The notes beneath the pieces are model-generated. The model worked only from the letters and a program-made list of their open reading frames with translations, was not told where the DNA came from and did not search any database. Shown one piece after another: positions 39,541 to 59,092 of a DNA stretch of 64,000 nt (the first letter of the stretch is position 1; every line of letters starts with the position of its first letter). This DNA is from Antrihabitans stalactiti (GTDB taxonomy: Bacteria > Actinomycetota > Actinomycetes > Mycobacteriales > Mycobacteriaceae): assembly GCF_012932915.1 (NCBI RefSeq), contig NZ_VCQU01000010.1:124001-188000 (forward strand), given 5' to 3'. Made by a program: the position numbers and the translations under genes.

Positions 39541-40912
<1,372 letters not shown>

Positions 40913-43093: not shown

Positions 43094-43344
43094 GAAAAGT
43101 GCATGAGCTGGCCGCCTTCTCCTGAAGGCGCGCTCGTCAATGGACCAGCGATCTGCGACGTACGCCAGCGGACCCGACTGGGTAAAGAACTAGGTCCCAG
43201 TCGCAACCTCGCTCAGTGTGCCGCGCGAAGACCAGCGCATTCTCGACGTCATTTTCAACCCGGTCAGCGCTAGTGTGCGCCGCATTCGACCAAGAGTTGT
43301 ACACCCAGGGGTGTCCCAGGACCTCAGTGAAGCTCGCTGGCTCC

Positions 43345-43462
43345 GTGTCTTTTCTTTACCGGGGTTGGGCGGGTTCGACCTACGTGACGGACGCTGCATC
43401 TTCGTACGTTTGGTGTGACCGGCAGCACGTTTCAGTCGTGCAGCTTACAAGTCGAAACCAGG
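43345..43462 (+). promoter_or_regulatory. Repeated leader element, copy A
   Basis: First of five related leaders. Order of blocks: GTGTC-TTTACCGG-like, then GGTTCGACCTACGT (43372-43385), a CG-rich spacer, TCGTACGTTTGGTGTGACC, a CACG/CGTG stretch, and AAGTCGAAAC just before the GGAGG of the MBL gene. The rest of the 43094-43344 stretch shows nothing recognisable. Likely promoter plus operator. Confidence 0.6.
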
Positions 43463-43475
43463 AGGTACGTACATC

Positions 43476-44393
43476 ATGAATCTTGACAATCGATCGCCCG
43501 TAGCCGCGCCGCCGATCCGCGCCACGGTCCATGTCGGCCGGTGGCCGGACGTCCCAGTGGGTGATTGGCCTGAGATGCCGACCGGTACCTTTTCGCCCAC
43601 CAGTGCGACGCTGATCAGCGGTCCGACCGAGGCGATTCTGATCGATGCGCTGTACCTGAAGGACGACGTGCGAGAGCTTGGGGATCTCATCGAGCGCACC
43701 GGGAAGTCTTTGACGACGATCTTCATCACCCACGCCCATCCCGATCACTTCCTGGGGTTCGGTCCGCTTCTCGAGCGATTCCCGGGCGCAAAGTGTGTGG
43801 CGATGCCCAACGTGATCGAAGCCATGAAGGAATCGATGGAGCTGATGGAGCGGCAGTGGGAGCTGCTCTTCGGCGATAGCTGCGTGAAGTCAGCGCGGCT
43901 CCCCGAACCGATCGAGGGACACACCCTCTTCGTCGATGGGTCGCCGGTGAACATCATCGAGGTCAAGCAAGCCGACATCCATCCGACCTCGGTGGTGCAC
44001 GTGCCCGAGATCGATGTCGTGGTTGCCGGTGACGCCATCTACAACGAAATCCATCCGATGCTCGGCCTTTCCACGCCCGAGGAATGGTCGGACTGGCTCG
44101 AGACCGTGGCCCTGGTGGAGAGCCTGAATCCGCGGATGATCGTGGCGGGACATCGTAGGCCCGATGGCGATGACTACGCGGTCGAAACCATGATCGCCCA
44201 GACGCGTTCCTACATTCAGGACTTTGCCGCGGCCTATGAGGTCGCCAAGGACGTCGAGGATCTGGTGACGACCATGGTCGCGAAGTACCCCTATCACGGC
44301 AATCTCTGGAGCTTGCAGTTCTCCGCCGGGGGTGCACTCCTGTACCGCGAGACCGGCAAGACAGCGGCGGACGTCGAGCCGGCCGAAGTATGA
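43476..44393 (+). CDS. Metallo-beta-lactamase-fold hydrolase, copy 1
   Basis: 305 aa. The metal site T-H-A-H-P-D-H at 85-91 supplies His86, His88, Asp90 and His91. A further aspartate lies in A-G-D-A-I-Y and a histidine in A-G-H-R-R. No signal peptide. The family hydrolyses thioesters, lactones, sulfate or phosphate esters. CAGGAGG precedes the ATG. A closely similar paralogue is at 55989, and both follow the repeated leader. Confidence 0.88.
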   Translation: MNLDNRSPVAAPPIRATVHVGRWPDVPVGDWPEMPTGTFSPTSATLISGPTEAILIDALYLKDDVRELGDLIERTGKSLTTIFITHAHPDHFLGFGPLLERFPGAKCVAMPNVIEAMKESMELMERQWELLFGDSCVKSARLPEPIEGHTLFVDGSPVNIIEVKQADIHPTSVVHVPEIDVVVAGDAIYNEIHPMLGLSTPEEWSDWLETVALVESLNPRMIVAGHRRPDGDDYAVETMIAQTRSYIQDFAAAYEVAKDVEDLVTTMVAKYPYHGNLWSLQFSAGGALLYRETGKTAADVEPAEV

Positions 44394-44499
44394 GATCCAG
44401 CGTCATCATCATCAGTTAGCCATGTGCGAAACCGCACGCACGAATCGAAAGGGGATGGGATTCGGGTCCGCCAGGCGGGCACCGCGCCCCGTAACACCA

Positions 44500-45192
44500 A
44501 TGACACCAACACGTTTGCCCCGCATCCGACAGGCCGTCCTCGTGGCGCGCGACCGCGATAGCGTCGTGGGCGCGCTGCGGGCGACGCTTCCGCTCGGTGA
44601 TCCATTTAACGACCCGGAGGTCGCCCAGTTCGGCCTGCAAAACGCCGTCATGCCACTCGGTGACACGTTCGTCGAAGTCATTTCGCCGGTCGAAGAAGGT
44701 ACGGCGGCCGGCCGCCACCTCGACCGGCTGGGCGGGGACGGCGGTTACATGACGATGTTTCAGGTCGACGACATCGCCGCCGCCCGCGCTCGAATCCAAC
44801 GGCTCGGTTTGCGCGTCATCTACGAGCTAGACCGCGACGGCGATACGGACATCCATCTTCACCCGGCCGACGTGCCTGGCGCGATCGTCGCGGTCGACCG
44901 CATGGAGCAGCCGGAGTCGTGGCGCTGGGCCGGCCCGGATTGGATTGCGAAGGCGCCGAACAAGATTGGTCCGCTCCGAGTTACTGGAGCAACCCTGACT
45001 GCCCACGAGCCGAGGATGCTGGCGAGCACATGGGCAGCCGCCCTCGGCGTCGAAGCCGACGGTGACCGGATCGCCCTGGACGGCGGCGAGCTGCACTTCG
45101 TCGCGGGAGAGCGCGACGGCATCGCGGCCTTTCACGTCGAGGGGCTCGAGGCCGACGCCACCATCGCCGGCGTCGATTTCGTGCGCGCCTGA
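44500..45192 (+). CDS. VOC (glyoxalase-like) protein
   Basis: 230 aa from ATG 44500; an in-frame ATG at 44455 is an alternative. Two beta-alpha-beta-beta-beta modules: the first (~1-125) has D-T-F-V-E-V and D-I-H-L-H-P metal-ligand candidates, the second (~140-230) is shorter. VOC proteins act as epimerases, isomerases, lyases or dioxygenases; an acyl-CoA epimerase-type role would fit the neighbourhood. Lies between the MBL gene and the crotonase. Confidence 0.72.
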   Translation: MTPTRLPRIRQAVLVARDRDSVVGALRATLPLGDPFNDPEVAQFGLQNAVMPLGDTFVEVISPVEEGTAAGRHLDRLGGDGGYMTMFQVDDIAAARARIQRLGLRVIYELDRDGDTDIHLHPADVPGAIVAVDRMEQPESWRWAGPDWIAKAPNKIGPLRVTGATLTAHEPRMLASTWAAALGVEADGDRIALDGGELHFVAGERDGIAAFHVEGLEADATIAGVDFVRA

Positions 45193-45271
45193 ACCCGCAG
45201 AGGCGCGGCCAGGCCGTCCTCGTCGAGTCCGCGCCTTTTCGGCAGCATGCGACACCCGCATCCCAGGAGAA

Positions 45272-46180
45272 ATGAAAATGGAGTTCCAGACGATCCGGCA
45301 CGATCTCAACGATGGAATCTTGACGATCACATTGAACCGACCAGAGCAACTGAACGCGTTCACAGTCACGATGGCCGAGGAGCTCGAGCACTCGTTTCGC
45401 GCAGTCAATGACAAGGACTCCGTCCGCGCCGTGATCGTGACCGGAGCGGACCGTGCGTTCTGCGCTGGCATGGACCTCAGCCGTAAGGGGAACGTGTTCG
45501 GGCTCGACGAGGAGCTCACCCCGGGCCTCGGCGACATGGCCGACCTCGACGATCCGGCCATCGCCGCGGTGCGCGACACAGGTGGGCGTTGCACGTTAGC
45601 CATTCACGACTGCCGCAAGCCAATTATCGCGGCCATCAACGGCGCGGCCGTAGGAATCGGCGCCACGATGACGCTGGCGATGGACCGTCGCCTGATGTCC
45701 GCCTCCGCGCGAATCGGGTTGGTCTTCGGCCGGATCGGCATTGTGCCGGAGGCCTGTTCGACGTGGTACCTGCCCAGGCTCGTCGGCCCGTCTGCGGCGC
45801 TGGACCTGGTCCTGCGCGCCGACATCCTCGACGCCGAGGCGGCTCTCGCGGTGGGGCTGGTCGACGAGGTCCACCCCGGCGAGGACCTGATGACTCAGGC
45901 CGTAGCGGTCGCCGACTCTTGGACTCGGGGGCGCTCGCCCGTTGCGGTTGCCCTGAGTCGCCAGATGGTTCGGCGCAACGGCACCTTGGCGCACCCGAGC
46001 GAGGCGCACCGGATCGACTCGCTCGCCATGTTCTGGACCAGCGTCGGCGATGGCAAGGAAGGCGTGGCGGCCTTTTTGGAGAAGCGGAAGCCCGACTTTC
46101 AAGGACGGGCGTCCACGATGCCCGACTTCTACAACGACTGGGTGACGGGCCCGGGTTCCCATTCGGCGCCTGTGAGGTAG
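45272..46180 (+). CDS. Enoyl-CoA hydratase/isomerase (crotonase family)
   Basis: 302 aa; AGGAGA lies four bases before ATG 45272. Crotonase motifs: L-N-R-P-E-Q-L-N-A near residue 20, A-F-C-A-G-M-D near 63 (first oxyanion-hole block), and G-A-A-V-G-I-G near 125 (second block). A glutamate in I-V-P-E-A near residue 158 matches a catalytic glutamate position. Acts on an enoyl-CoA of the pathway. Confidence 0.88.
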   Translation: MKMEFQTIRHDLNDGILTITLNRPEQLNAFTVTMAEELEHSFRAVNDKDSVRAVIVTGADRAFCAGMDLSRKGNVFGLDEELTPGLGDMADLDDPAIAAVRDTGGRCTLAIHDCRKPIIAAINGAAVGIGATMTLAMDRRLMSASARIGLVFGRIGIVPEACSTWYLPRLVGPSAALDLVLRADILDAEAALAVGLVDEVHPGEDLMTQAVAVADSWTRGRSPVAVALSRQMVRRNGTLAHPSEAHRIDSLAMFWTSVGDGKEGVAAFLEKRKPDFQGRASTMPDFYNDWVTGPGSHSAPVR

Positions 46181-46301
46181 CAGCGCCACCCGATCTTCGA
46201 CGCGGTTCCGACTCGGTCTGAAGCGCTCCGACGCTGCACCGGACCTACTGACCAACTCCGGTCGCGGCGAATCTTTTTTCGCCAACTAGCTAGCTTGCAG
46301 C

Positions 46302-46419
46302 AGGTCGCCGCCATCATCTGTCGGCGATCGAGGAAGAGGCCTGCTTGGTCCTCCCGCATCCCTAGCTGCGCGAGAGCCGTACCGGCGCAAGGGATCTGAC
46401 TATGACCGTAGGCTCGCCG
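46302..46419 (+). pseudogene. Remnant of SDR gene 3' end
   Basis: About 118 bp closely match 41570-41687 of the SDR gene, including a long shared run around TTGGTCCTCCCGCATCCC and CCGGCGCAAGGGATCTGAC. The frame is interrupted by stops. Nothing upstream of it (46181-46301) is recognisable. It is a decayed duplicate. Confidence 0.75.
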
Positions 46420-46475
46420 GTCCCACGCCGCGCCGAGCGTGGGACTTGCTGACGCCTTCCCTTGAGCCGGGCTTC

Positions 46476-46587
46476 GTGTCTTTTTTACCGGTTTCAGGCG
46501 AGTTCGACCTACGTGACGGACATCTCACCTTCGTACTTTGAGTGTGACCGGGAGCACGTTCACTCGTGCAACTACCAAGTCGAACTC
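46476..46587 (+). promoter_or_regulatory. Repeated leader element, copy B
   Basis: Same order of blocks as copy A: GTGTC, TTTACCGG, AGTTCGACCTACGT (46501-46514), TTGAGTGTGACCG, GAGCACG, CTCGTGCAACTACCAAGTCGAAC. Upstream of the importer binding-protein gene (ATG 46626). Confidence 0.6.
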
Positions 46588-46625
46588 ACAGCCAGATCAC
46601 GTCCAGGAGCACGAGGAGAACCAGC

Positions 46626-47870
46626 ATGAGTATGCGAACACATTTCGTCCAGTCCAGAGCGGCGGCTAACCCCCGGTCTTCGCCGGCTGAGCGGGGACGG
46701 CACGCGGTCGTGTTACTGGCGATAGGGACGATGTTGTTTCTCGCGTCCGCCTGCGGAGAATCCGCGGGCACCAATGCCGGGACCTCTGCTCCTGAGGTGG
46801 TCGCGGAGGCGAAGGCAGCCGTAGCCGCGAACCGGCAGGGCACTGACCGTGCGTTGCCAACGAGCGCGCCGAAGCCGCAAGCGGGCAAGAACGTCTGGGT
46901 CATCTCCTGTTCCCAAGCGGCGGAGGGGTGTTCGAGGCCCGCAGCCGGAGCGCAGGAGGCCGGTCAGGTCATCGGTTGGCAGATGACCGTGTTCGATGGC
47001 AAGGGCAGCCCGGACGTCTTCGCGAGTGGAATCCGCTCGGCGATCGCCGCCAAGGCGGACGCGATCATTCTCGACGCCGTGGACTGCGTCGCCGTCAAGA
47101 GCGCACTGCAAGAGGCCCATCAGGCAGGCGTAAAGATCTACGGAATCTTCTCCATGGATTGCGACGATGCGCTGGCGGGTGGCGGCGAGTCCTTGTTCGA
47201 CGCCGAACTCACTTACGAGGGGGGAATGAGCTTCGGGGAGTACGCCGAGGGCCCGTTCATCCGCAGCCTCGCGGACTACGTCATCGCCAAGACCGATGGT
47301 GAAGCCCAGATCATCGAGTTCACCCAGGACGACGCTCTCATCGCCAAGCACCTCGGCAAGGGTTTCGAAGCCCGAATCAAGGACTGCTCCGGCTGCACGA
47401 TCGTTGCCGAGGTGCCCATCACGTTCAACGATCTGATCAGCGGCAACCTGCAGGCCAAGGCCGCGGCGGCGCTGACCCGGTACCCCCAGGCGAACGTCTT
47501 GTACGGCCTTTACGACAGTGCGCTGATCCTGGGCATCTCGCAGGCCGTTATCGCTTCGGGCCGGAACGACGACCTGCTGGTGCCCGGCGGAGAGGGTCTG
47601 AGCCCGAACATCGGCTTCGTGCGAGACAACAAGGGCCAGGACTCCATCATCGGCTCTCCGGCGAACTGGTTGGGTTGGGCTGCGGTCGACGGCGTGAACC
47701 GGTTGCTCCAGGGGCAACCGCAGGTCGACGCAGGCATTGGTTTGCAGACGCTCGATCGCGACGGACCCTTGCTCGCGAAGACGACGTACTACGACGGCAA
47801 CATCGACGCCAAGGGCAACCCCAAGGTGGACTACCAAGCCCACTATAAGAACATCTGGAGTGGCTCTTGA
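46626..47870 (+). CDS. RbsB-type ABC importer substrate-binding lipoprotein
   Basis: 414 aa from ATG 46626, which has GAGGAGAA upstream. Basic N-terminus, hydrophobic stretch and lipobox L-A-S-A-C (Cys43). The mature part is a periplasmic-binding-protein type I fold with repeated A-D-A-I-I-L-D and G-V-K-I-Y-G patterns, as in ribose-binding proteins. The bound ligand is not known; relatives also take up cyclitols, AI-2-like molecules and aromatic glycosides. First gene of a three-gene importer; its stop overlaps the ATPase start. Confidence 0.85.
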   Translation: MSMRTHFVQSRAAANPRSSPAERGRHAVVLLAIGTMLFLASACGESAGTNAGTSAPEVVAEAKAAVAANRQGTDRALPTSAPKPQAGKNVWVISCSQAAEGCSRPAAGAQEAGQVIGWQMTVFDGKGSPDVFASGIRSAIAAKADAIILDAVDCVAVKSALQEAHQAGVKIYGIFSMDCDDALAGGGESLFDAELTYEGGMSFGEYAEGPFIRSLADYVIAKTDGEAQIIEFTQDDALIAKHLGKGFEARIKDCSGCTIVAEVPITFNDLISGNLQAKAAAALTRYPQANVLYGLYDSALILGISQAVIASGRNDDLLVPGGEGLSPNIGFVRDNKGQDSIIGSPANWLGWAAVDGVNRLLQGQPQVDAGIGLQTLDRDGPLLAKTTYYDGNIDAKGNPKVDYQAHYKNIWSGS

Positions 47871-49408
47871 CCGAGGTCCGCGGTGGTGCACAGGACGTCG
47901 TCCTGCGCACCACCGCACTGAGCAAGACGTTCGCGGGAACCACGGTCCTGCGAGCGGCCCACCTCGAGGTGCGACGAGGCGAGGTCCACGCCCTCCTCGG
48001 CGGTAACGGTTCGGGGAAGTCGACCCTGATCAAACTCCTCGCCGGCGTCTACCACGCGGACCCCGGCGGGCGGATCCAGGTACAGGGCGTCTCCTCGTCG
48101 GCCGACGAATGGTCGCCGACGGTGGCGCGCTCCGCCGGGCTGCACTTCGTCCACCAGGATCCCGCGGTGTTCCCCACGCTCACCGTTGCGGAGAACCTGG
48201 CCATCGGTCGCGGTTTCGTCCGCGGCGTCGGAGGCCGGATCGACTGGTCCGCAACCCTGCGCCGTACCGCCGAGGTCCTCGAGCGATTCTCCTTGGAAGT
48301 GTCGCCGGACACCCCGGTCGCTGCTTTGCGTCCGGCCGACCGCACGATGCTGGCCATCGCACGCGCTCTGCAAGACCAAGAAGGGGCGCACGACGGAGTT
48401 CTGGTCCTCGACGAGCCCACCGCGTCACTGCCCGCCGGGGAGGTCGCAATCCTGCTTGCGGCGCTTCGCAAGTATGCGGCCGCCGGTCAAACCATCGTGT
48501 ACGTGAGTCACCGACTTTCCGAGGTACTCGAGCTCGCGGACCGTGTCACCGTGCTGCGCGACGGTGCCCAAGTGACGACCCGGGACACGTGCGACCTGAC
48601 TGAGGAAGGGCTTGTCGAACTCATTGCCGGGCGCAAGCTGGACGGGGTTTTTCCCGAGCGGCACGGAGCAGTGGGTCAGGACGTGGTGATGTCGGTGCGC
48701 GGACTCGCCGCCGGCCCGTTGCGGGGAGTCGACCTGGATCTGCACCGCGGTGAGATTCTCGGCGTCGCGGGTCTGCTCGGTTCTGGCCGTACTGCCCTGC
48801 TGCGGGCCATCTTCGGGGATCTGCCCGTGACCGCCGGCGGGATTCGCTTGGCGGGCAAGCCTTACCGGCCCTCCCGCCCGGCGCGGGCCATGAAGGCTGG
48901 GATCGCTCTGGTGCCGGAAGACCGCGGCACGGAAGGCCTTTTCGCCTCGCTATCGGTGCGTGAGAATTTCTCTGCCTCGGTCGTGTCCCGCTATTGGTCA
49001 CGTGCACGGCTCCAGCACCGGCGTGAGCGCGCCGACGCCCGCCAATTGGTCAGTGCCTACGGGGTTCGGCCGGCAAGTGATCTGCCGATCGCTGGGACTC
49101 TGTCGGGCGGCAACCAGCAGAAGGTCGTCATTGCCCGGTGGTTGCGACGCGACCCTGTCGTGCTCCTGCTGGACGAGCCGACTCAGGGCGTCGACGTCCA
49201 GGCTCGTGCCGATATCTACGAGCACGTCCGGCAAGCGGCCGCCGCAGGGACCGCCGTCCTACTGGTTACGTCGGACTTCGACGAGTTGGCCCACATGGCC
49301 GATCGAGCGGTGGTCCTCCGAGAAGGCCGCGTCGCTGTTGAGGTCCACGGCGCAGACCTCGACCCGCACCGGTTGACCGAACTGTCGTACCTAATCAAGG
49401 AGACCTAG
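47867..49408 (+). CDS. RbsA-type tandem ATPase of sugar-class ABC importer
   Basis: 513 aa with a TTG start that overlaps the previous TGA. Two ABC domains: ~10-250 with G-G-N-G-S-G-K-S Walker A near 45, and ~260-500 with the shortened L-L-G-S-G-R form of Walker A and L-S-G-G-N-Q-Q-K signature. This asymmetry is normal for RbsA/MglA. It energises the permease at 49411. Confidence 0.9.
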   Translation: MTEVRGGAQDVVLRTTALSKTFAGTTVLRAAHLEVRRGEVHALLGGNGSGKSTLIKLLAGVYHADPGGRIQVQGVSSSADEWSPTVARSAGLHFVHQDPAVFPTLTVAENLAIGRGFVRGVGGRIDWSATLRRTAEVLERFSLEVSPDTPVAALRPADRTMLAIARALQDQEGAHDGVLVLDEPTASLPAGEVAILLAALRKYAAAGQTIVYVSHRLSEVLELADRVTVLRDGAQVTTRDTCDLTEEGLVELIAGRKLDGVFPERHGAVGQDVVMSVRGLAAGPLRGVDLDLHRGEILGVAGLLGSGRTALLRAIFGDLPVTAGGIRLAGKPYRPSRPARAMKAGIALVPEDRGTEGLFASLSVRENFSASVVSRYWSRARLQHRRERADARQLVSAYGVRPASDLPIAGTLSGGNQQKVVIARWLRRDPVVLLLDEPTQGVDVQARADIYEHVRQAAAAGTAVLLVTSDFDELAHMADRAVVLREGRVAVEVHGADLDPHRLTELSYLIKET

Positions 49409-49410
49409 AC

Positions 49411-50433
49411 ATGACCACAACGACCAATCGCACGCTCGGGAGCGAGGCGGGTACGGCGCCGCCGCGCCGGCGTCCGGAACTGCTGGCATTCGTCGAGAGG
49501 TACGCGCTGGCCGCGATGCTGGCACTCCTGTGCTTGTTCTTCTCGATGTATGGATCGACCGCCGAGACGTTCACCTCGCTGGCAAACATCCGCAATATTC
49601 TCGGCAGCGAGTCGGTCGTCGCTGTCGCGGCACTTGCCTCGATCGTGCCGCTCACCTGTGGCCAGTTCGACCTGTCCGTCGGAGCCGTGCTCGGGCTCTC
49701 CTCCGTCGTAGCGGGTACAGCGGCCGCCACGCACGGGCTCCCAGTACCCGTTGCGGTGGCCGTCGGCGTTCTGGTTGGCGCCGTGGTCGGTACGTTCAAC
49801 GGCTGGCTCGTGGCCTACCGCGGCGTCAATGCACTGATAGCAACGCTCGGCACGTCAACCTTGGTCGCCGGACTGGTGAGCCTGTACACCGAGAACCAGG
49901 TGGTCAGTGTGGGCATCCCCGAGAGCTTGACCAACTTCGGCACGGTACGGCTACTGGGCGTGCCCCAAACGCTCTACGCGGTGGCTCTGATCGCAGCTAT
50001 CGTCTACTACCTGCTGCGCCATACGCCGTATGGCCGCTACCTCGCCTCCGTGGGCGCCAGCCCGACGTCGGCGCGCCTGGTGGGTTTGAACGTGCCCCGG
50101 ATGATCCTGTCCAGCTTCGTGCTCTCCGGAGCGCTTTCCGGCATTGCGGGCGTCCTGCTGCTGGCCCGTGCTGGCACGGCGAACCCGCAGGTCGGGCCAG
50201 GATTCACCCTCGCAGCTTTGTCTGCGGCGTTCCTCGGCGCGACAGCAATCCGTCCGGGAACTTTCAACGTGTTCGGCACACTGCTCGGCGTCCTTTTCGT
50301 TGCCGTAAGCGTCAACGGCCTGGTCCTGTCTGGAGCTGCTGACTGGGTTGAGCCCACCTTCAATGGTGCGGCGCTGCTCGTTGCGGTCACCCTCTCCACC
50401 GCCTTTGCCCGGCGGCGTGCCGGTCGTACCTGA
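49411..50433 (+). CDS. RbsC-type permease of sugar-class ABC importer
   Basis: 340 aa with about ten hydrophobic helices. The family pattern L-T-C-G-Q-F-D-L-S-V-G-A lies near residue 85, and G-R-Y-L-A-S-V-G near 206. Starts 2 bp after the ATPase stop. Together the three genes form a complete importer, placed within a CoA-type catabolic region. Confidence 0.9.
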   Translation: MTTTTNRTLGSEAGTAPPRRRPELLAFVERYALAAMLALLCLFFSMYGSTAETFTSLANIRNILGSESVVAVAALASIVPLTCGQFDLSVGAVLGLSSVVAGTAAATHGLPVPVAVAVGVLVGAVVGTFNGWLVAYRGVNALIATLGTSTLVAGLVSLYTENQVVSVGIPESLTNFGTVRLLGVPQTLYAVALIAAIVYYLLRHTPYGRYLASVGASPTSARLVGLNVPRMILSSFVLSGALSGIAGVLLLARAGTANPQVGPGFTLAALSAAFLGATAIRPGTFNVFGTLLGVLFVAVSVNGLVLSGAADWVEPTFNGAALLVAVTLSTAFARRRAGRT

Positions 50434-50576
50434 CCCGATTGGGTTACAGGTCCATGAGACCGAGACGACTTCTTGATCGATTGTGAACCCGATCCGGAGC
50501 GCCCCACGTGGCAGCGCACTGCCGTCGACCGGGGTACAGCTCTGGGATTTGCGTGCCTGGCCGTCGCGCTGGGTTC

Positions 50577-50700
50577 GTGTCAATTCTTTCCCGGTGTACG
50601 GCAGGTTCTACCTACGTCGCCGACGCCCTGCGCTCGTACGTTGAATGTGACCGACAACACGTCTACTCGTGCGACTGACCAAGTCGAAACCTGGAGGTTC
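50577..50700 (+). promoter_or_regulatory. Repeated leader element, copy C
   Basis: Blocks: GTGTCAATTCTTTCCCGGTG, GGTTCTACCTACGTCGCCGACG, TCGTACGTTGAATGTGACCG, ACTCGTGCGACTGACC, AAGTCGAAACCTGGAGG. About 100 bp downstream the tautomerase gene begins with its own AAAGGAG. The rest of 50434-50802 shows no gene. Confidence 0.6.
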
Positions 50701-50802
50701 GGCGCGATCCGTGAGGCGAATTCATACAGCCGAGCGTTCGGGCCGGTGCTGGCGACCTAGCCGTTCTGCACTAATTCACCCATCAAATAAAAGGAGTACC
50801 CG

Positions 50803-51318
50803 ATGCCACTGTGGCAGCTGTTCACCCCAGAGAATGCGTTCACATCCGAAGAGAAGGCTGATCTGGCGAGCAAAATCACCAACATCTACTCGTCTGACTG
50901 GGCGCGGGAGAATTTCGGCTTCGAGCTGCCGCGGTTCTACACCTCAGTGGTCTTCCACGAGATCAAGGCGGACTCGTTCTACGTCGGCGGTGAGGCGCGT
51001 GACAAGTTCGTCCAAATCGAGGTCGTCCACATCGCCCGTACGAACGAGGGGGCCGCCGCCCTCGCGGGCATCACTGTCGAGGAGATCCTCCGGCGGTACT
51101 TCGAGAAGGTCAACGGTTTACTCAAGCCGTACATCGCCGACCGCGGCTACGAGGTGGAGTTCCACGTCGAAACCGCGCCGTTCGAAACCTGGCAGATCGA
51201 CGGCATGGTGCCGCCGGCTCCCCATTCCGTGGCAGAGCGGCGCTGGTTCGAGGAGAACCGGAGCTCGCCGTACAACGCCGAAGAACTGAGCAACGACCCG
51301 CGGGTCGCGACTGTCTGA
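50803..51318 (+). CDS. Tautomerase-superfamily protein (Pro1), copy 1
   Basis: 171 aa. Met is followed by Pro, the amino-terminal catalytic proline of the tautomerase superfamily (M-P-L-W-Q-L). Two beta-alpha-beta repeats are visible (~1-75 and ~85-135), fitting the putative oxalocrotonate tautomerase group similar to cis-3-chloroacrylic acid dehalogenase. Enol/keto tautomerisation or hydration are the known activities. AAAAGGAG precedes the ATG. A second copy is at 52412, on the other side of the hydrolase gene. Confidence 0.8.
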   Translation: MPLWQLFTPENAFTSEEKADLASKITNIYSSDWARENFGFELPRFYTSVVFHEIKADSFYVGGEARDKFVQIEVVHIARTNEGAAALAGITVEEILRRYFEKVNGLLKPYIADRGYEVEFHVETAPFETWQIDGMVPPAPHSVAERRWFEENRSSPYNAEELSNDPRVATV

Positions 51319-51385
51319 AACAGGCACCGCCTCACCTACCAACCTGACCAAGCAATCCACACGAAAGTCATTGAGGGAGAAGCCG

Positions 51386-52303
51386 ATGCGCGAAGATATC
51401 GAGTTCGACGCTGAGGGAGTGACGCTACGCGGCTGGTTCTACAAACCTGACGACGCGTCCGGCGAAGTGCCGTGCATCATCCTGACGCACGGGTTCTCGT
51501 GTACCAAGGAGATGGGTCTCGAACCCTTCGCCGAGGCGTTCACCGCCGCGGGGTTCGCTTGCGTGGTCTATGACCACCGGGGGTTCGGTGCCTCGGACAC
51601 GGCTCCGGGTAAGCCGCGGCTGGAGCTCGACCCGTGGGACCAGATCCACGACTGCCAGCACGCGATCACCTACGCGCAGGGCCGGCCCGATGTCGACGCG
51701 TCGCGCATCGGGGTGTGGGGTTCGAGCTACTCGGGCGGCAACGCGTTTGTGGTCGCGGCGATCGACCGCCGCGTCAAGGCCGTGTGCGGGCAGGTGCCTG
51801 GAGTTTCTATGCGGCGCACCTTCGAGGCTGGCGTTCCGAAGGAGTTCTGGCAGGAAATCTGGGACGGGCAGGCAGCCGATCGGCTTGCAAGAGCCCGAGG
51901 AGAGGCACCCGCGATGATTCCTGTAGTCACCGCGGACCCCACCCAGCCGGCAGCCCTGCCGACACCCGATGCCTACGCGTTCTTCTCTCCCTACGAGGGG
52001 ACCGCGTGGCGCAACGAGGTGACGATGCGCTCGTTGGAGCAGGGCTACGAGCCAGGCGAGTTTCTCAAGTTCGTTGCTCCAACCCCGCTTCTGATGGTGG
52101 TTGCCGAGGGCGACACCATCGTGACGCCGGCCGAGTGGGCCAAGGAGGCGTACGAGACCGCGGTCGAGCCCAAGCGTCTCGTCACGATCCCCGGCGGCCA
52201 TTTCGACGCATACACCGGTCACCCGTTCGAGCTCTCGTCGGGCGCGGCACGCGAATGGTTCCTCGAGCACCTGGCGCAGAAGGTCGCCCCAGCACCGGTC
52301 TGA
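51386..52303 (+). CDS. Alpha/beta hydrolase (dienelactone-hydrolase/CocE-like), copy 1
   Basis: 305 aa from ATG 51386 (GAGGGAGA upstream). H-G-F-S oxyanion region near residue 35, nucleophile Ser114 in G-S-S-Y-S-G-G, aspartate in A-E-G-D-T, histidine in G-G-H-F-D. Cytoplasmic. It may open a lactone or cleave a C-C or ester bond of a tautomerised intermediate. Near-identical copy at 59093 and a broken copy at 55506. The gene sits between two tautomerase genes. Confidence 0.87.
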   Translation: MREDIEFDAEGVTLRGWFYKPDDASGEVPCIILTHGFSCTKEMGLEPFAEAFTAAGFACVVYDHRGFGASDTAPGKPRLELDPWDQIHDCQHAITYAQGRPDVDASRIGVWGSSYSGGNAFVVAAIDRRVKAVCGQVPGVSMRRTFEAGVPKEFWQEIWDGQAADRLARARGEAPAMIPVVTADPTQPAALPTPDAYAFFSPYEGTAWRNEVTMRSLEQGYEPGEFLKFVAPTPLLMVVAEGDTIVTPAEWAKEAYETAVEPKRLVTIPGGHFDAYTGHPFELSSGAAREWFLEHLAQKVAPAPV

Positions 52304-52306
52304 GCT

Positions 52307-52330
52307 CTGGGTCCACCACGGCGGACCCAG
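52307..52330 (+). terminator. Hairpin between hydrolase and second tautomerase
   Basis: 8-bp stem CTGGGTCC/GGACCCAG with an 8-nt loop directly after the hydrolase stop, no T-tract. Could reduce read-through or stabilise the upstream message. Confidence 0.4.
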
Positions 52331-52411
52331 TCGAACTAACAAGTCTCGTCCGATCCGGGCGTGCCATCAAAAGTGTGAGCACTCGTTTCACAATCAAAAG
52401 GAGAAATAGTC

Positions 52412-52897
52412 ATGCCGTTTTGGAGAATCCACCACCCTGTTGGGGCCTACACCGATCAGGACAAGGAGGACTTCGCGAAGGCCATCACAGCTCGCTACGC
52501 GGCAGAAATGCCGGCCTTCTACTGCGACGTGTTCTTCTACGAGGTGGAGAAAAGGAACGCGTTCAGGGGTGGCGAGGCCGTCGACAACTTTGTTCGCCTC
52601 CAGGTGGAACACATCGCACGAGCGATAGACGGCCAGGTGATGCAGCAGTTCATCATGGACTTGCTGACCGAGACCATCAGACCGTGGCTCGACGGTCGCG
52701 GGCACGATTGGGAAATAAGCATCGGGGAGATGCCGGCCGAGCTGTGGAGGGTCGACGGGTTCACTCCGCCGCCGTTCCGCTCACCGGCGGAGAAGCGGTG
52801 GATGAGCGACAACAAATCATCCCCGTACGACTGGACCGAAACGGTCGGTCTTAACGCGGATGGCCAGATCGTGGGGTTGGTCGATCCCAGGGGCTGA
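52412..52897 (+). CDS. Tautomerase-superfamily protein (Pro1), copy 2
   Basis: 161 aa. Starts M-P-F-W-R-I, so the catalytic Pro1 is present. It shares with copy 1 the F-x-x-E-V, F-R-G-G-E-A/Y-V-G-G-E-A block, V-E-H-I-A-R and the ending with W-x-x-D-G-F/M-x-P-P followed by A-E-x-R-W. The two are diverged paralogues and could form a heteromeric enzyme, as several tautomerases do. AAAGGAG precedes the ATG. Confidence 0.8.
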   Translation: MPFWRIHHPVGAYTDQDKEDFAKAITARYAAEMPAFYCDVFFYEVEKRNAFRGGEAVDNFVRLQVEHIARAIDGQVMQQFIMDLLTETIRPWLDGRGHDWEISIGEMPAELWRVDGFTPPPFRSPAEKRWMSDNKSSPYDWTETVGLNADGQIVGLVDPRG

Positions 52898-52938
52898 ATA
52901 CCTAGCGACCCACAGTCTGACTAACGCTCTGTCATCCC

Positions 52939-52973
52939 GGCCCGGGTCTCTGTGCCACCCAGAGACCCGGGCC
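52939..52973 (+). terminator. Strong terminator-like hairpin
   Basis: Perfect 14-bp stem (52939-52952 with 52960-52973) and a 7-nt loop, 41 bp after the tautomerase stop, followed by CTCGGTTCTT. Ends the tautomerase/hydrolase transcript. Confidence 0.65.
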
Positions 52974-53154
52974 CTCGGTTCTTCGGTCGAAATGCGGACA
53001 CGCTCAGCACGGCCGTCGAGGAACTCGGCGGATCTCGCGAGGCCCGTCTTCTCAGCAGTAGCCGGCGTCGCAGACGAAAGACATTGTGGCAGTGAAATGG
53101 CAGGGATCGCTCGCTACTGAAGCGAGCGACAACACGGAGAGACAGAAATCACTC

Positions 53155-54939: not shown

Positions 54940-55091
54940 ACGTGCCCGGACGCTGATAGCACGAACACCCGTCGACGAACGAGTCGTGCCATTGGTGACT
55001 CCGAACTCGAGAAGCGCAGTTTCGTTCTGCCGCTTGGTCTTCGGTGGCTCTGTCCCATTCTGTCCGACAGGCGGACGCAAAATCACGAATA
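54940..55091. other. Intergenic stretch before the decayed gene mosaic
   Basis: No recognisable gene; fragments in several frames without family similarity. It joins directly to the SDR remnant. Confidence 0.35.
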
Positions 55092-55280
55092 GGCTTTCGG
55101 GATACTTCATATCGACGGCCTCGGCCGCCCGACTGCTCGCCCAAATTGACAAAGCGCCGTTCTCGCTCACCGAGCACGCTCCCGTCGGCTTCACGAGTGG
55201 CTGTCGGTCGCCTACGGAGACCGGAGCGAACGGGTGAGCTGCATTGGCCCGAGGGGTCAACACCGACACCCACAGCAGGG
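55092..55280 (+). pseudogene. Remnant of SDR gene middle part
   Basis: Matches SDR gene sequence 41300-41485 (block with the S-T-A-S-A-A-G-L-L-T-Q region and the active-site tyrosine). The copy has a deletion of codons after the tyrosine region and several frame changes. Decayed duplicate of the gene at 40926. Confidence 0.75.
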
Positions 55281-55425
55281 CCGGCCGGACGTCGACGCCT
55301 CGGCGCTCGCAGGGCGCCGTACGTTTCGAGACGAACGTTCCGAAAGAGTTCTGGCAGGTGGCGTGGGACGGGCAGGCAGCCGACTCGAGGAATTGATCAG
55401 CGACGTGCTGGTGGCCACTGGCTGA
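55281..55425 (+). pseudogene. Remnants of hydrolase middle part and tautomerase 3' end
   Basis: The first part matches the hydrolase codons for P-D-V-D-A-S and, after an internal deletion, R-R-T-F-E-T-N-V-P-K-E-F-W-Q (compare 59396-59590). It runs into E-E-L-I-S-D-V-L-V-A-T-G and a stop, which resembles the C-terminus of tautomerase copy 1. The following bases match the region after that gene's stop. Confidence 0.65.
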
Positions 55426-55505
55426 AACAGGCACCGCCACACCGCCAACCTGCACTAAGGCCTGAGGATGGCCGAGCATTCCCCAGGCTGTTCACTGAAA
55501 AGCCG

Positions 55506-55802
55506 ATGCGCGAAGATATCGAGTTCGATGCTGAGGGTGGACGCTGCGCGGCTGGTTCGCCCAGCCTGAGGACGTGTCCGGTGAAGTGCCGTGCGTGGTC
55601 ATGGCGCATGGCTTTTCGTGCACCAAGGAGATCGGTCTGAAGCCCTTCGCTGAGGTGTGCAGCGCCGCGGGGTTCGCTTGCGTGGTCTGTGACCACCGGG
55701 GGATTGGGTGCCTCGGATGCGGCGGGGTGTAGGGCTTCGAGCTACGCGGCCGGCAACGCCTTCGCGGTCGCGGCGATCGACCGGCGCGCGAAGGCCGTGC
55801 GT
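55506..55802 (+). pseudogene. Frameshifted alpha/beta hydrolase, third copy
   Basis: Begins with the same M-R-E-D-I-E-F-D-A-E-G codons as the two intact hydrolases. A one-base loss near 55539 shifts the frame, and further changes and a deletion follow. Recognisable as far as codons for A-I-D-R-R-A-K-A-V. Both the metal-independent nucleophile region and the C-terminal half are missing or broken. Confidence 0.8.
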
Positions 55803-55880
55803 AGTGAGTGGGTATTCAGGACCTCCGGTTGGCCGTAGCCAACTCTGCGACCGGCGTGCCCAGTGCGTGTCTGCGGTTTC

Positions 55881-55987
55881 GTGTCATTTCTTTACCGGTG
55901 TTGGGCGAATTCGACCTACGTCGTCGACGTCCCCTGCTCATACGTTGGGAATAGATCGCAGCCCGCCCCGAAACCTGGAGGAATCTC
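55881..55987 (+). promoter_or_regulatory. Repeated leader element, copy D
   Basis: Blocks: GTGTCATTTCTTTACCGGTG, GAATTCGACCTACGTCGTCGACG, CTCATACGTTGGGAATAGATCG, then CGAAACCTGGAGGAA as ribosome-binding region. The TGTGACC block is less well kept. Directly precedes the second MBL gene. Confidence 0.6.
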
Positions 55988-55988
55988 A

Positions 55989-56891
55989 GTGGATACTGAC
56001 GCCAAATCGTTGGACGCAAGCTCGGAGTCGACGCCGGCCAAACCGAAGATCCGCGCAACGGTGTTCAACGGCCGGTGGCCGGAGATCCGGGCTCCGTATC
56101 CCGGGATAGAGACCGGGACTTTTCCGCCCTCCTCTTCCACGATCGTGAGCGGCCCGACCGAGGCAGTTCTCATCGACGCCCAGTACCTCAAGGACGACGT
56201 TCGAGAACTCGGTGACCTGATCGAACGCACAGGAAAGGCCCTCACCACTATCTACATCACGCATGCGCACCCTGATCACTACCTGGGCATTGGTCCGTTG
56301 AAGGAGCGGTTCCCCGAAGCGAAGTGCATCGCGCTGCCACATGTCGTCGAGGCGATCCCAGGAGCCATGGCCGAATATGCCGACCTGTGGGAGATGATGT
56401 TCGGCGACACCAGCGTTCCCTACGGCGCGCTTCCCGACCCGTTCGAGGGCGACACGTTCTACGTCGACGGCTCCCCGCTGAAGATCATCGAGGTCAAGCA
56501 GGCCGACGTCCATCCCACCACGATCGTGCACGTTCCCGAGATCGACCTCGTGATCGCCGGTGACGCCATTTATAACGAGATCCACCCGATGCTCGGGCTC
56601 TCCACACCGGAGGAATGGTCGGACTGGCTCGAGACCGTGGACCTCGTGGAGAGTTTGAACCCCCGCATGCTCGTGGCCGGGCATCGCAGGCCTGATGGCG
56701 ACGATTACGCGGTCGACACCATGATCGCGGAGACCCGCGCCTATATCCAGCAGTTCGCAGCCGCGTACCGGGTTGCGAAGGACGCCAAGGAACTGACTGC
56801 CATCATGACGGAGAAGTTCCCATACCACGGTCAAATTTGGACGCTGGAGTTCTCCGCCTTCGCTGCGTTCGCGGCGCGCGACGCGGAGTAG
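55989..56891 (+). CDS. Metallo-beta-lactamase-fold hydrolase, copy 2
   Basis: 300 aa from GTG 55989, where CTGGAGGAA provides the ribosome-binding site. Same metal motif T-H-A-H-P-D-H near 92-98 and the same downstream blocks (A-G-D-A-I-Y-N-E-I-H-P-M, A-G-H-R-R-P-D-G-D-D-Y) as copy 1. By eye the two proteins are around two thirds identical. Probably parallel enzymes for related substrates. Confidence 0.88.
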   Translation: MDTDAKSLDASSESTPAKPKIRATVFNGRWPEIRAPYPGIETGTFPPSSSTIVSGPTEAVLIDAQYLKDDVRELGDLIERTGKALTTIYITHAHPDHYLGIGPLKERFPEAKCIALPHVVEAIPGAMAEYADLWEMMFGDTSVPYGALPDPFEGDTFYVDGSPLKIIEVKQADVHPTTIVHVPEIDLVIAGDAIYNEIHPMLGLSTPEEWSDWLETVDLVESLNPRMLVAGHRRPDGDDYAVDTMIAETRAYIQQFAAAYRVAKDAKELTAIMTEKFPYHGQIWTLEFSAFAAFAARDAE

Positions 56892-57022
56892 CTCAGAGGC
56901 AGATCCCGTTCGGTGACGACGGCGCCGGTCGCTGCGGACCGGCCCGGCTACCGCGTCATGGAGCATCCACGATGTGCACTGCGCACGCAGAGCGGTCCCT
57001 CGATGCTGGCGACGGCGCAATC

Positions 57023-57391
57023 ATGAAGAAGGACGGGGGCGTCCTACTCATCCGCATCGACCGGCCGGCTAAACGGAATGCGCTGACACCGGGTCTGTTG
57101 GGCCGCCTGGGAGAGGTGTACTCGTCTTACGAGTCGAGCGACGCGCTGCGATGTGCTGTCTTGTTCGGGCACGGAAAGGCGTTCTGCGCAGGCGCTGACC
57201 TCAAAACTGGCGCGCGCCGGCGGACATCATCGTGGCGGAACAAGCTACGAAGTCGGGCCAACCCGAAGCGCAACGCGGAATCTTCGCCCTTCGGTGGCGG
57301 CTCGGTACGGTGGCCGCTTCGCGTGGGGTGGGGCAACTCCCAGCGGTACGTGCTCACCGGCGATCTTCTCGACGCGCGCGAAGCAGACTAA
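57023..57391 (+). pseudogene. Broken crotonase (enoyl-CoA hydratase) gene
   Basis: ATG 57023 opens a frame with crotonase codons up to A-F-C-A-G-A-D-L-K (~residue 60). After that, frames change: one frame carries A-D-I-I-V-A-E-Q-A-T and G-Q-P-E-A-Q-R-G-I-F, and the first frame resumes with P-F-G-G-G-S-V-R-W-P and R-Y-V-L-T-G-D before an early stop. About 45 codons between the two blocks and ~70 C-terminal codons are missing compared with whole crotonases. Confidence 0.75.
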
Positions 57392-57422
57392 CAGGATCAA
57401 CAGCAGAAAAGGCTTTCGACTC

Positions 57423-58847
57423 ATGACGCAAAACCTGACGAACGACGCCCCGACCTCGGCGAAGTTGCCGACAGAGCTGTCCACCATCGCGGTGATCACG
57501 CTCATCGGCGGAGCCTTCGTGCCGATTCTTTCGTTTTTCGTCATCAACGTCGCGCTGCCGTCCATAGGCACGGATCTCGAGGCTTCCAAAGCCGGTTTGC
57601 AACTCGTAGTCGGCACCTACGGAATTGCGAACGCGACGCTGGTCGTGGTCGGCGGTCGGCTGGGTGACGCGTTCGGTCGGCGGCGCCTGTTCCTCGTTGG
57701 CATGGCAGGGTTCACTATCTTTTCGCTGCTGTGCGGCCTCGCTCCGAATGTGTTGATGCTGTTGGCTTTCCGCGTCGGCCAAGGCGCGCTTGCCGCATTG
57801 ATGACGCCCCAGGTACTCGCGACTATTGCCGCCGTGCTGACCGGCGCGAGCCGAATCCGCGCGGTGGGCATGTTCGGGGCGGCGGGCGGCGTCGGTGCAG
57901 CGGTCGGTCAGATCTTGGGCGGCGTATTGGTGTCGGCAGATATCGCTGGACTCGGTTGGCGCACAGTCTTTTTCGTCAACATTCCGGTGTGCGTCGTCGT
58001 ATTCATCGCTGCCTATCGAGTGATTCCCGAAACGAAAGCATCGGTCCGCCTTCCGGTCGACGGCATCGGAGCGCTCTTGCTCGGCACCACCCTAGTGATG
58101 CTGCTGTTGCCACTGACGGAAGGCCGCGCACTCGGCTGGCCGATCTGGACCTGGGCAATGCTGCTCGCAGTGATTCCGCTCCTCGTCGTTCTTGGAATGC
58201 ACCAACGCCGGACCGAGCACTCGGGCAGGGCCGCATTGGTTCCACCTTCGGTACTTCGATTGCGCGGCATGCGGATCGGTTTGATCATCGGCGTCGCGTT
58301 CTTCACAACATTCGGCGGCTTCATGTTCGTCTTCGCAATTGCCACGCAGGGCGAAGCTGGTATGACTGCACTGGAGGGCGGGATGACTTACCTTCCGCTC
58401 GCGATCAGCTGCATGGCCGTGTCGATCTACAACGCCAAACTGCAGGAGCGGTTCGGTCCGAGCATCATCGCTCGTGGCTGGGCGATCCAGGCCGTCGGCT
58501 ATCTGGCATGTGCTGCCGTCGTCGCTGCGCGGTGGCCCGACGTAGGTCCGCTCACTACGGCGATTCCGATGTTCGTGATCGGGCTCGGCGCGGGGCTGGT
58601 GATGATGCCGTTGTTCGGGATCGTGATGGCGCAGGTGCCGCAAGAGCAGGCCGGCCTCGGTAGCGGGATTCTGATCACCACACAGCAAACGTGCTTCTCG
58701 CTTGGCGCCGCGACCGTCGGCACGCTCTTCCTGATTCTCGCCGGCACCAGTTGGGGGCAAGGCGGAGCGCTCACCGCTGTCGAAGTGATGATTGCAGTGG
58801 TGTCGGTCGCCGCCGTTCCAGTGAGCCTTGGGCTGACGCGGAAATAA
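57423..58847 (+). CDS. DHA2-family MFS transporter
   Basis: 474 aa with about 14 hydrophobic helices. G-G-R-L-G-D-A-F-G-R-R-R (motif A) after helix 2, and G-A-A-G-G-V-G-A-A-V-G-Q in helix 5. Probably a proton-driven exporter, possibly for a toxic substrate or intermediate of the surrounding pathway. It lies between the broken crotonase and leader copy E. Confidence 0.85.
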   Translation: MTQNLTNDAPTSAKLPTELSTIAVITLIGGAFVPILSFFVINVALPSIGTDLEASKAGLQLVVGTYGIANATLVVVGGRLGDAFGRRRLFLVGMAGFTIFSLLCGLAPNVLMLLAFRVGQGALAALMTPQVLATIAAVLTGASRIRAVGMFGAAGGVGAAVGQILGGVLVSADIAGLGWRTVFFVNIPVCVVVFIAAYRVIPETKASVRLPVDGIGALLLGTTLVMLLLPLTEGRALGWPIWTWAMLLAVIPLLVVLGMHQRRTEHSGRAALVPPSVLRLRGMRIGLIIGVAFFTTFGGFMFVFAIATQGEAGMTALEGGMTYLPLAISCMAVSIYNAKLQERFGPSIIARGWAIQAVGYLACAAVVAARWPDVGPLTTAIPMFVIGLGAGLVMMPLFGIVMAQVPQEQAGLGSGILITTQQTCFSLGAATVGTLFLILAGTSWGQGGALTAVEVMIAVVSVAAVPVSLGLTRK

Positions 58848-58903
58848 GACGAATGGTTCGAGATCTCGAACCGAACTTCAGTCAACTTGTTGCGGGCCGG
58901 TGG

Positions 58904-58985
58904 TTGTCAATTCTTTACCGATGTTCGGCGGGTTCGACCTACGTCGCTGACGGCGCCCGCTCATAGGTTGAGTGTGACGAACAGG
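58904..58985 (+). promoter_or_regulatory. Repeated leader element, copy E
   Basis: Blocks: TTGTCAATTCTTTACCGATG, GGGTTCGACCTACGTCGCTGACG, CTCATAGGTTGAGTGTGACG. The 3' part is shortened. Upstream of the hydrolase/NTF2/MDR operon that starts at 59093. Confidence 0.6.
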
Positions 58986-59092
58986 GAATCAACGACCCAC
59001 GGGCGGCGACAGCCCCGTCATACGCAACAACGTGATTGAGACCTCGAGGTCCGGCGAAGCATTTGCATGACATTTACTGAATGGAGAAACCG

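Follow-up and report, generated by a model that had tools for sequence, protein, structure and literature searches.

Six copies of a putative promoter-and-leader module precede duplicated catabolic genes and an unrelated importer in Antrihabitans stalactiti

Within the DNA analysed here (the window: 64,000 nucleotides of contig NZ_VCQU01000010.1 of Antrihabitans stalactiti), related sequences recur upstream of several genes of a catabolic region, which raises the question of whether they carry a common promoter and operator that define one regulon, as the preliminary description proposed, or derive from the duplication of whole promoter-gene units, which it had also considered. The five elements listed there (E1–E5) were all found in place, within a few bases, and their conservation was above chance: a 31-nt core pattern (three mismatches at most) matched the window five times vs. 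zero times in 100 dinucleotide shuffles, and in an ungapped 85-nt family the copies were 69–80% identical to E1. The count of five was, however, incomplete. A PWM of E1–E5 detected a sixth, diverged copy (E6; 39546–39627) with a score of 18.8, the maximum in 20 shuffles of an 80-kb region of a relative being 13.5. The same scan returned unexplained sites in genomes G237 (20.0) and G144 (20.4) and a site of 17.0 in G051, and the leader of the NMO gene in G051 is 78% identical to that of E6 over 213 positions.

The anchors of the element read GTGKC-N7-TACC-N7-GGC-N7-[A/T][C/T]CTA and are followed, at a near-fixed distance, by a TANNNT -10 box; judged by its sequence, the element looks like a promoter. 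All copies, and all genes and remnants described below for the window, lie on the forward strand. Gene products were assigned to families only, and no substrate is claimed. E1 (43340–43422; distal half-site 43345–43360, proximal half-site 43368–43382, -10 box TACGTT at 43405–43410) is the putative promoter of MBL-fold hydrolase copy 1 (43476–44393; PF00753), and E4 (55875–55954; half-sites 55881–55896 and 55904–55918, -10 box 55941–55946) that of MBL-fold hydrolase copy 2 (55989–56891). E2 (46470–46552; proximal half-site 46497–46511, -10 box TACTTT at 46534–46539), whose distal half-site carries a 2-bp deletion, would drive a sugar-type ABC importer operon (46626–50433; PF13407, PF00005 and PF02653) encoding a binding protein (46626–47870), an ATPase (47867–49408) and a permease (49411–50433). 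E3 (50571–50654; half-sites 50577–50592 and 50600–50614, -10 box 50637–50642) is the predicted promoter of a tautomerase-hydrolase 1-tautomerase 2 unit, with the tautomerase at 50803–51318 (PF14832) and alpha/beta hydrolase copy 1 at 51386–52303 (a match below cut-off to an NCBIfam UilS-like model). E5 (58899–58980; half-sites 58904–58919 and 58927–58941, -10 box 58964–58969) adjoins a tautomerase remnant and alpha/beta hydrolase copy 2 (59093–60007). Finally, E6 (half-sites 39551–39566 and 39574–39588, -10 box 39611–39616) is followed by a ribosome-binding site and a decayed MBL 5' end (39640–39760), after which the first intact gene encodes an NMO/FabK-like oxidoreductase (39938–40912; FabK model below its cut-off).

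Some features first attributed to the copies held only in part. The tail AAGTCGAAAC of the order they were said to share is missing in E5, partly lost in E4 and stops early in E2. Likewise, a conservation exceeding that of the flanking DNA was evident between copies but not clear for the sole orthologous pair compared, E4 and the MBL2 leader of Nocardioides gansuensis, which are 87% identical in the element and 84% identical over 212 aligned positions including flanks.

The specificity of the element was analyzed with R1, a sequence model built from the own elements and their relatives. In the 6.76-Mb genome R1 gave six strong matches, all on one strand and within 20 kb, with E values of 5.9e-20 (E1), 7.4e-19 (E2), 4.5e-21 (E3), 4.7e-20 (E4), 2.3e-19 (E5) and 1.3e-16 (E6), all six sites being among its training sequences; the next match had an E value of 0.135. 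All six strong matches were located upstream of cluster genes, on the strand of the gene. Further, the 31-nt core pattern had five matches in the whole genome and none in three other genomes of the genus; the element is therefore not a dispersed repeat, a possibility that the genome-wide searches rule out. The bare half-site pattern was far less specific: its strict form matched, among 394 genomes of the class, three own sites and one each in G582 and G715 vs. five control matches, and with two mismatches it gave 10 matches in the own genome (five elements, without E2, and five scattered sites) vs. 13 in the control. Since such matches are no commoner than in controls, this pattern cannot by itself define the regulon. 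R1 matches of 9e-5 to 0.01 in other genomes of the family were taken as chance, except for that in G144, which was kept as alignment row G144_x and whose placement before a cluster gene is not established. No element was found at the further MBL copies on the own contig (C2:209558 and 257406), at a fragment at 215359 or at further hydrolase and tautomerase copies.

In line with the proposal of a common promoter and operator, the anchors and the -10 box recur with kept spacing before orthologous genes, in clusters that mostly hold an AraC gene. Sites of this kind precede orthologous genes in Rhodococcus, Nocardioides and Paenarthrobacter and, more weakly, in Streptomyces, and an AraC-family gene adjoins most of these clusters. 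In an alignment of 18 sites on TACC, from which four Streptomyces rows with C-C-A in place of C-T-A were dropped, GGC and the terminal C-T-A of the proximal block were present in 18 of 18 rows and the T, A and T of the -10 box in 16 of 18 each, the box being shifted by one base in two rows. When a PWM built on all six own sites was used to scan 23 loci of relatives, the stretch upstream of the MBL gene ranked first in 11 (five of them near-identical Streptomyces) and second or third in three more. The element thus lies upstream of several operons and is conserved at orthologous promoters, with nine of the 23 loci, where the MBL-upstream region was unremarkable, missed.

Taken together, we consider it fairly likely that the elements define one regulon of AraC/XylS class II promoters, whose leaders were duplicated along with gene units and captured by other genes. 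Each element would be a complete activator-dependent promoter plus leader, in which a dimer of an AraC/XylS-family protein would bind two direct half-sites 21 bp apart, the distal one being GTGKC-N7-TACC and the proximal one GGC-N7-[A/T][C/T]CTA. The proximal half-site would abut the -35 region, with the TANNNT box at a near-fixed distance as in class II activation, and the first gene would follow after a short 5' UTR. If transcription is assumed to begin 7 nt downstream of the -10 box, the proximal half-site occupies roughly positions -49 to -35, where it would abut or overlap the -35 region, and the -10 box follows at a near-fixed spacing. The anchors of the two half-sites align at a lag of 21 (G-G, C-C, C-C). 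Over 17 sites this lag was the best of lags 14–29, although marginally so (column permutation p = 0.053), and in the five own sites alone lag 17 scored higher.

The proposed arrangement is of a known kind. In the XylS/Pm system, a single well-studied promoter responding to benzoate-type inducers, an AraC/XylS activator acts from tandem sites that abut the -35 region of a catabolic promoter. A closer parallel comes from an actinobacterium, Rhodococcus sp. YH-5B, where half-sites of the AraC/XylS-family regulator CphR are reported at -35 to -49 and -55 to -69 of the cphA2A1 promoter (PMC6205950). The module as predicted here would share with that promoter a tandem pair of direct half-sites, each about 15 bp long, of which the proximal one lies beside the -35 region (roughly -35 to -49), in front of catabolic genes, with the AraC/XylS-type regulator being a candidate in our case; the two systems differ in the half-sites (TGCA-N6-GGNTA for CphR vs. 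GKC-N7-TACC and GGC-N7-[A/T][C/T]CTA here), in their spacing (20 vs. 21) and in that here one module precedes six units encoding other enzymes and an importer (PMC6205950).

Candidate regulators are encoded with the target genes. Two AraC paralogs, AraC201 (C2:201869–202927) and AraC206 (C2:206485–207465), are located on the own contig 14–19 kb beyond the window, and matches to HTH_18/HTH_AraC (PF12833, PF00165) were obtained with AraC206 and, for AraC201, with its C-terminal part. AraC homologs were present in 11 of 14 MBL loci on genome contigs. In the AraC tree, AraC201 grouped with proteins from Paenarthrobacter and two from N. gansuensis (99/98), and AraC206 with those of Rhodococcus and N. 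immobilis (100/100). Elements of the GTGTC type were found in the three genomes with AraC201-type proteins, whereas AraC206-type proteins had elements of the GTGGC..TACCGTTGA type beside them. AraC201, perhaps acting at E1–E5, and AraC206, perhaps acting at E6, are the regulators we consider most likely. This subtype split depends on a few positions, and element identity alone does not separate the subtypes cleanly, as overall identities overlap (75% between the Paenarthrobacter TAUT and G051 NMO elements; 60% between own E5 and the Paenarthrobacter MBL element). A 100% identity between the G229 and Paenarthrobacter MBL elements turned out to be an alignment artefact. The match of subtypes to AraC clades also has exceptions: the MBL site of G144 is of the GTGTC type, but the AraC protein there is from another clade, and in G051 an E6-like element precedes NMO, yet the only AraC match of this genome at E ≤ 1e-30 (41%) falls in another clade. 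At loci L099 and L101, AraC adjoins MBL genes where no site was found.

The same promoters might instead be read by LuxR/LAL-type regulators (C2:199275–201701 and 204091–206418), or by LuxR and AraC together, which we regard as improbable. LuxR regulators are conserved beside AraC in the own, Rhodococcus and Nocardioides clusters: each own AraC gene has a LuxR neighbour, and LuxR204 is 87–89% identical in Rhodococcus, where, as in N. immobilis, it adjoins AraC. However, a LuxR homolog (E ≤ 1e-15) was present in only two of the 14 loci (L092 and L103), while L093–L098, with element-like sites, have AraC alone, and no LuxR homolog is present on the contig, only 7.3 kb long, that carries the AraC201 ortholog of Paenarthrobacter.

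Duplication, the second explanation considered at the outset, is itself evident, with E1/E4 (MBL), E3/E5 (tautomerase-hydrolase) and E6 (MBL remnant-NMO) heading paralogous units. The decayed MBL stretch after E6 shares 76% identity with the 5' portion of another MBL copy, at C2:209558. Just upstream of E2 lies a remnant of an SDR 3' end (46304–46420) that is 86% identical to window positions 41571–41686 and 77% identical to the stretch before MBL2 in R. koreensis (L186), where MBL2 is likewise preceded by an SDR 3' end. As for hydrolase copy 2, which had been listed as the gene behind E5, the element is indeed upstream of it, but an apparent 3' tautomerase remnant (58990–59010) sits between them. 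It matches the tautomerase 3' end in 18 of 21 bases (score 27 vs. a maximum of 26 in 500 base shuffles, 0/500), and against the second, decayed tautomerase copy it did no better than shuffles (16/500 reached the score). Paenarthrobacter (L091) retains the full order element-TAUT-HYD2-SnoaL-ADH-thiolase, and the E5 unit likely lost its tautomerase by deletion.

These data could be taken to mean that there is no dedicated regulon and that the elements are relics of promoter-gene unit duplication, with constitutive or unrelated control: most copies precede paralogous genes, the SDR, tautomerase and hydrolase fragments show heavy duplication and decay, and several homologous units on the own contig have no element. 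We think this doubtful, given that the E2 importer is not homologous to the other element-led genes, with only one other match to its binding protein at E ≤ 1e-60 (36% identical) and no element-bearing importer homolog seen in 301 family genomes, and that the anchor spacing is retained in other genera while the remaining leader diverges.

Duplication alone likewise fails to explain E3, where homology changes within the leader. The alignment to E1 stops at 50701, and there an alignment to the R. koreensis tautomerase leader, which has a different promoter, starts; this junction (about 50701/50702) is defined by the ends of local alignments and is good to a few bases. Together with the unrelated importer behind E2, this suggests that the leader was captured. 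We infer the direction of copying to be from MBL-type leaders to E3, at the tautomerase unit, and to E2, at the importer, giving, along with the duplicated units, a putative regulon of MBL hydrolases, importer, tautomerases, hydrolases and an NMO branch. Four Rhodococcus megaplasmids (NZ_CP082159.1, NZ_CP070610.1, NZ_CP130956.1 and NZ_CP076047.1; stretches of 25–49 kb) carry MBL-hydrolase-tautomerase clusters whose proteins are up to 97% identical to the own ones. An E6-like element precedes the MBL gene beside AraC in three of the four records (L185, L188 and L189), whereas several other units, including tautomerase-hydrolase and MBL copies, have a different shared module, a palindrome of the kind GAGAGATTRCTCWCTC, and searches detected no element in front of them; on the own contig this palindrome (≤3 mismatches allowed) has two matches, both at three mismatches. 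The same kinds of catabolic unit occur with the AraC-type module here and in Paenarthrobacter and Nocardioides and, several of them, with the palindromic module in Rhodococcus megaplasmids. More tentatively, leader modules comprising operator, promoter and 5' UTR may be exchangeable cassettes, the importer may have been recruited by the same route, and operator subtypes may have split alongside the duplicated AraC.

It is very unlikely that the conserved function is that of an RNA leader, riboswitch-like or a 5' stabilising hairpin. Hairpins immediately downstream of the expected start are common but not present in every leader (over 23 leaders, near-identical ones included, z averaged -1.2, with a best value of -4.0); z was positive in five of the 23, including N. 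gansuensis MBL2 (+2.0), E4 (+1.6) and E5 (+0.6), and the conserved block precedes the -10 box. No Rfam match at E ≤ 1 was obtained in 39000–60500, and a known RNA element was thus discarded. Lastly, although several similar copies lie close together, spread of a mobile, MITE-like repeat is scarcely credible for elements that have no copies elsewhere in the genome, all stand upstream of a gene in its orientation, occupy orthologous positions in other genera and show no inverted repeats of at least 25 nt.

The module probably lets one or two AraC-type proteins, presumably with an inducer, switch the whole gene set on together. Its parts are of a known kind, as is the regulon itself, and its copying onto new genes is traceable in the sequence. 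No description of this gene set was found in the literature searched for it. For this actinobacterial gene set there are now two candidate regulators and an operator that can be tested, so that screening inducers on a single promoter could show which compounds the pathway breaks down. The region also illustrates, in a form legible from the sequence, how regulons of bacteria may expand: units duplicate, unrelated genes capture a promoter leader, and in related bacteria a different operator stands before homologous units.

The preliminary description had reported five copies of a leader element in one catabolic region, and all were found when the window sequence was checked: E1 (43345) and E4 (55881) before copies 1 and 2 of an MBL-fold hydrolase gene (MBL), E2 (46476) before an importer gene, E3 (50577) before a tautomerase gene and E5 (58904) before hydrolase 2. 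The conservation claimed for them was also above chance, with five matches to a 31-nt core pattern in the window and none in 100 shuffles. By local alignment, the leaders of E1 (43335-43469) and E3 (50567-50701) were 77% identical over 138 positions, and those of E1 and E2 83% over 120 positions. Searched over the whole genome, the core pattern gave five matches, and none in three other genomes of the genus.

A sixth copy, E6 (39546-39627), was detected with a position weight matrix (PWM) of E1-E5, which scored 18.8 at 39561 (maximum of 13.5 in 20 shuffles of an 80-kb region from a relative); the same scan gave unexplained sites scoring 20.0 and 20.4 in two relatives, G237 and G144. E6 was accepted on more than this score, because its leader and the one before the oxidoreductase gene NMO in the genome G051 share 78% identity over 213 positions. 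Downstream of E6 lie an MBL-like ribosome-binding site, a decayed MBL 5' end and then NMO; the decayed end is 76% identical to the MBL copy at C2:209558 on the same contig, where the order MBL-NMO-SDR is still intact. A model of the element's sequence alone, built from E1-E6 and the G237 and G229 sites (R1; E-values are rough), gave six strong matches in the own genome, with E from 4.5e-21 to 1.3e-16, and the two following ones stood at 0.135 and 0.487; since all six are training sequences, the notable outcome is the empty gap below them.

Among other genomes, R1 located sites ahead of MBL in two that were part of its training, G237 and G229, and ahead of NMO in G051 (E 1.2e-17), which was not. 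Paenarthrobacter sp. CM16 has one in front of tautomerase-hydrolase 2 and another in front of MBL (L091), plus one before hydrolase 1 on a further contig (L104); Nocardioides gansuensis has them before both MBL2 and hydrolase 1 (L103), and N. immobilis has one before MBL (L092). In three Rhodococcus megaplasmid loci (L185, L188 and L189), R1 also picked out the MBL gene adjoining AraC. Weak sites precede MBL in five Streptomyces (L094-L098; E 4.5e-5 to 0.011). With a PWM of the six own sites only, 11 of 23 relative loci had the MBL-upstream window in first place, three had it second or third and nine had it in none of these places. As the set includes five near-identical Streptomyces loci and three of G229, the loci are not independent. 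Two more strong sites lie in N. gansuensis (L205:2785-2855 and 6777-6856), approximately 7 and 11 kb from its second AraC gene, one of them about 120 bp ahead of a 216-aa ORF with an apparently secreted product.

Of the 14 MBL loci in the genome_contigs set, 11 have an AraC-family homolog: all seven whose MBL window ranks first, two with weaker sites (L093 and L100), and L099 and L101, where no element site was found; L091, L102 and L104 are without one. LuxR control was weighed too. Part of the locus set has conserved LuxR neighbours, but L093-L098 have none, nor does the Paenarthrobacter AraC contig, which is 7.3 kb long. Two LuxR-AraC regulator pairs, one divergent, adjoin each other outside the window at G000:C2:199275-207465.

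The own genome holds two close AraC relatives, AraC201 (C2:201869-202927) and AraC206 (C2:206485-207465). A tree built from 22 AraC proteins places AraC201 in one group with Paenarthrobacter and the two N. gansuensis proteins (99/98), whereas AraC206 falls with Rhodococcus and N. immobilis (100/100), the latter on a long branch and less certainly placed. The element subtypes tend to follow these clades. E1-E5 (TTGTC in E5), Paenarthrobacter and N. gansuensis have GTGTC-type elements with ACGTTG-like -10 regions. In E6, in G237 and G229, before G051 NMO and on Rhodococcus plasmids the element has GTGGC with TACCGTTGA, and N. immobilis comes close to this second type. Paenarthrobacter encodes a 74% AraC201 ortholog, and AraC206 has no closer match there. 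There are exceptions: the ranges of overall element identity within and between subtypes overlap, G144 has a GTGTC-type site at MBL but AraC proteins of another clade, and G051 carries an element like E6 before NMO although no AraC206-like protein was found there at E<=1e-30. As its NMO and ACAD are 95-96% identical to those of the window, the G051 element-NMO piece may have been transferred.

Passive duplication, in which elements are copied with their genes and define no dedicated regulon, was weighed as a further alternative. Duplicated promoter-gene units, proposed earlier, are supported by the paralogous genes behind E1/E4 and E3/E5. The Paenarthrobacter order element-tautomerase-hydrolase 2-SnoaL-ADH-thiolase equals that after E5 minus the tautomerase, and 58990-59010 matches the tautomerase 3' end at 18 of 21 positions (score just above 500 shuffles). 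The E3 leader aligns with E1 as far as 50701, MBL-type ribosome-binding site included, and from there is 75% identical over 104 positions to the R. koreensis tautomerase leader, which has a different, palindromic promoter. We read ~50701 as a probable promoter-exchange junction, located within a few bases; the exchange may have run in either direction. E2 lies directly downstream of an SDR 3' remnant (86% to 41571-41686), and R. koreensis MBL2 is also preceded by an SDR 3' end; given this shared neighbour, the importer most likely captured the leader of an MBL unit. The importer binding protein has one other match (36%) in 301 family genomes (E<=1e-60). The stretch directly before E4 (55097-55800) is a patchwork of decayed pieces of SDR, tautomerase and hydrolase genes.

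The anatomy was derived from 18 sites in nine genomes, anchored on TACC with four near-identical Streptomyces rows left out; since rows were found by R1 or by eye, conservation is partly selected, and one row, G144_x, may not lie ahead of a cluster gene. Spacing is constant among GTGKC, TACC, GGC and a C-T-A block, followed by the -10 box TANNNT. Conservation was 18/18, 16/18, 18/18 and 18/18 along TACC, 18/18 for GGC, 18/18 each for C, T and A at the proximal block end (C-C-A in the omitted rows), and 16/18 each for T, A and T of the -10 box, two rows being one base out of register. An assumed start 7 nt past this box puts the proximal block near -49 to -35 and the distal block near -72 to -57. 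The blocks align at a 21-bp lag, which as a whole-half-site statistic is the best among 14-29 but marginal (p=0.053), the five own sites alone favouring 17. The two sites bound by CphR of Rhodococcus sp. YH-5B are 15-bp direct repeats, located at -35 to -49 and -55 to -69 (PMC6205950); the putative architecture of the element agrees with this, whereas the half-site sequence differs. The element likely works like an AraC/XylS class II promoter, with regulator binding predicted; as a member of that class in a strict sense it is a candidate, the tandem half-site signal being marginal. Hairpins of differing sequence lie shortly past the expected start in many leaders (43420-43460, 46552-46575, 50655-50680 and relatives), and are absent in E4 and N. 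gansuensis MBL2.

An RNA leader was considered as well: when 23 leaders were folded, z averaged -1.2, but five, including E4, E5 and N. gansuensis MBL2, had positive z, and an Rfam search of 39000-60500 returned no match at E<=1. A mobile repeat was also weighed and is very unlikely.

A different promoter module, with a palindrome like GAGAGATTRCTCWCTC, is common to several of the homologous MBL and tautomerase-hydrolase units on Rhodococcus megaplasmids (L185:38281, 46567; L186:27768 (-), 34143; L187:11444, 17029; L188:29958). In three tautomerase/hydrolase leaders the palindrome lies between TTGACA and TAC[CT]GT, and it looks like a repressor operator; the L185 NMO and SDR-ACAD leaders carry related-looking GATAG/CTATC palindromes. 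Elsewhere on the contig, beyond the window, an in-frame fusion joins an acyl-CoA ligase ORF to an MBL copy (G000:C2:207488-210484), the element found at this junction in Rhodococcus being absent, and a different tandem motif, AACAACGTTATAACAACATTATA, lies upstream of another MBL copy (G000:C2:257200-257420, L016).

On the own contig, no element accompanies either of the MBL copies at 209558 and 257406, the fragment of MBL at 215359, or the additional tautomerase and hydrolase copies between 212 and 226 kb. It is likewise missing from the hydrolase 1-tautomerase 2 units of Rhodococcus plasmids, which reach 97% protein identity. Because such homologous units are without it, the regulon does not track gene families as such. 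We regard the elements as genuine and as functional in appearance, and the best reading of them is a single AraC-type regulon within a catabolic region that has undergone duplication.
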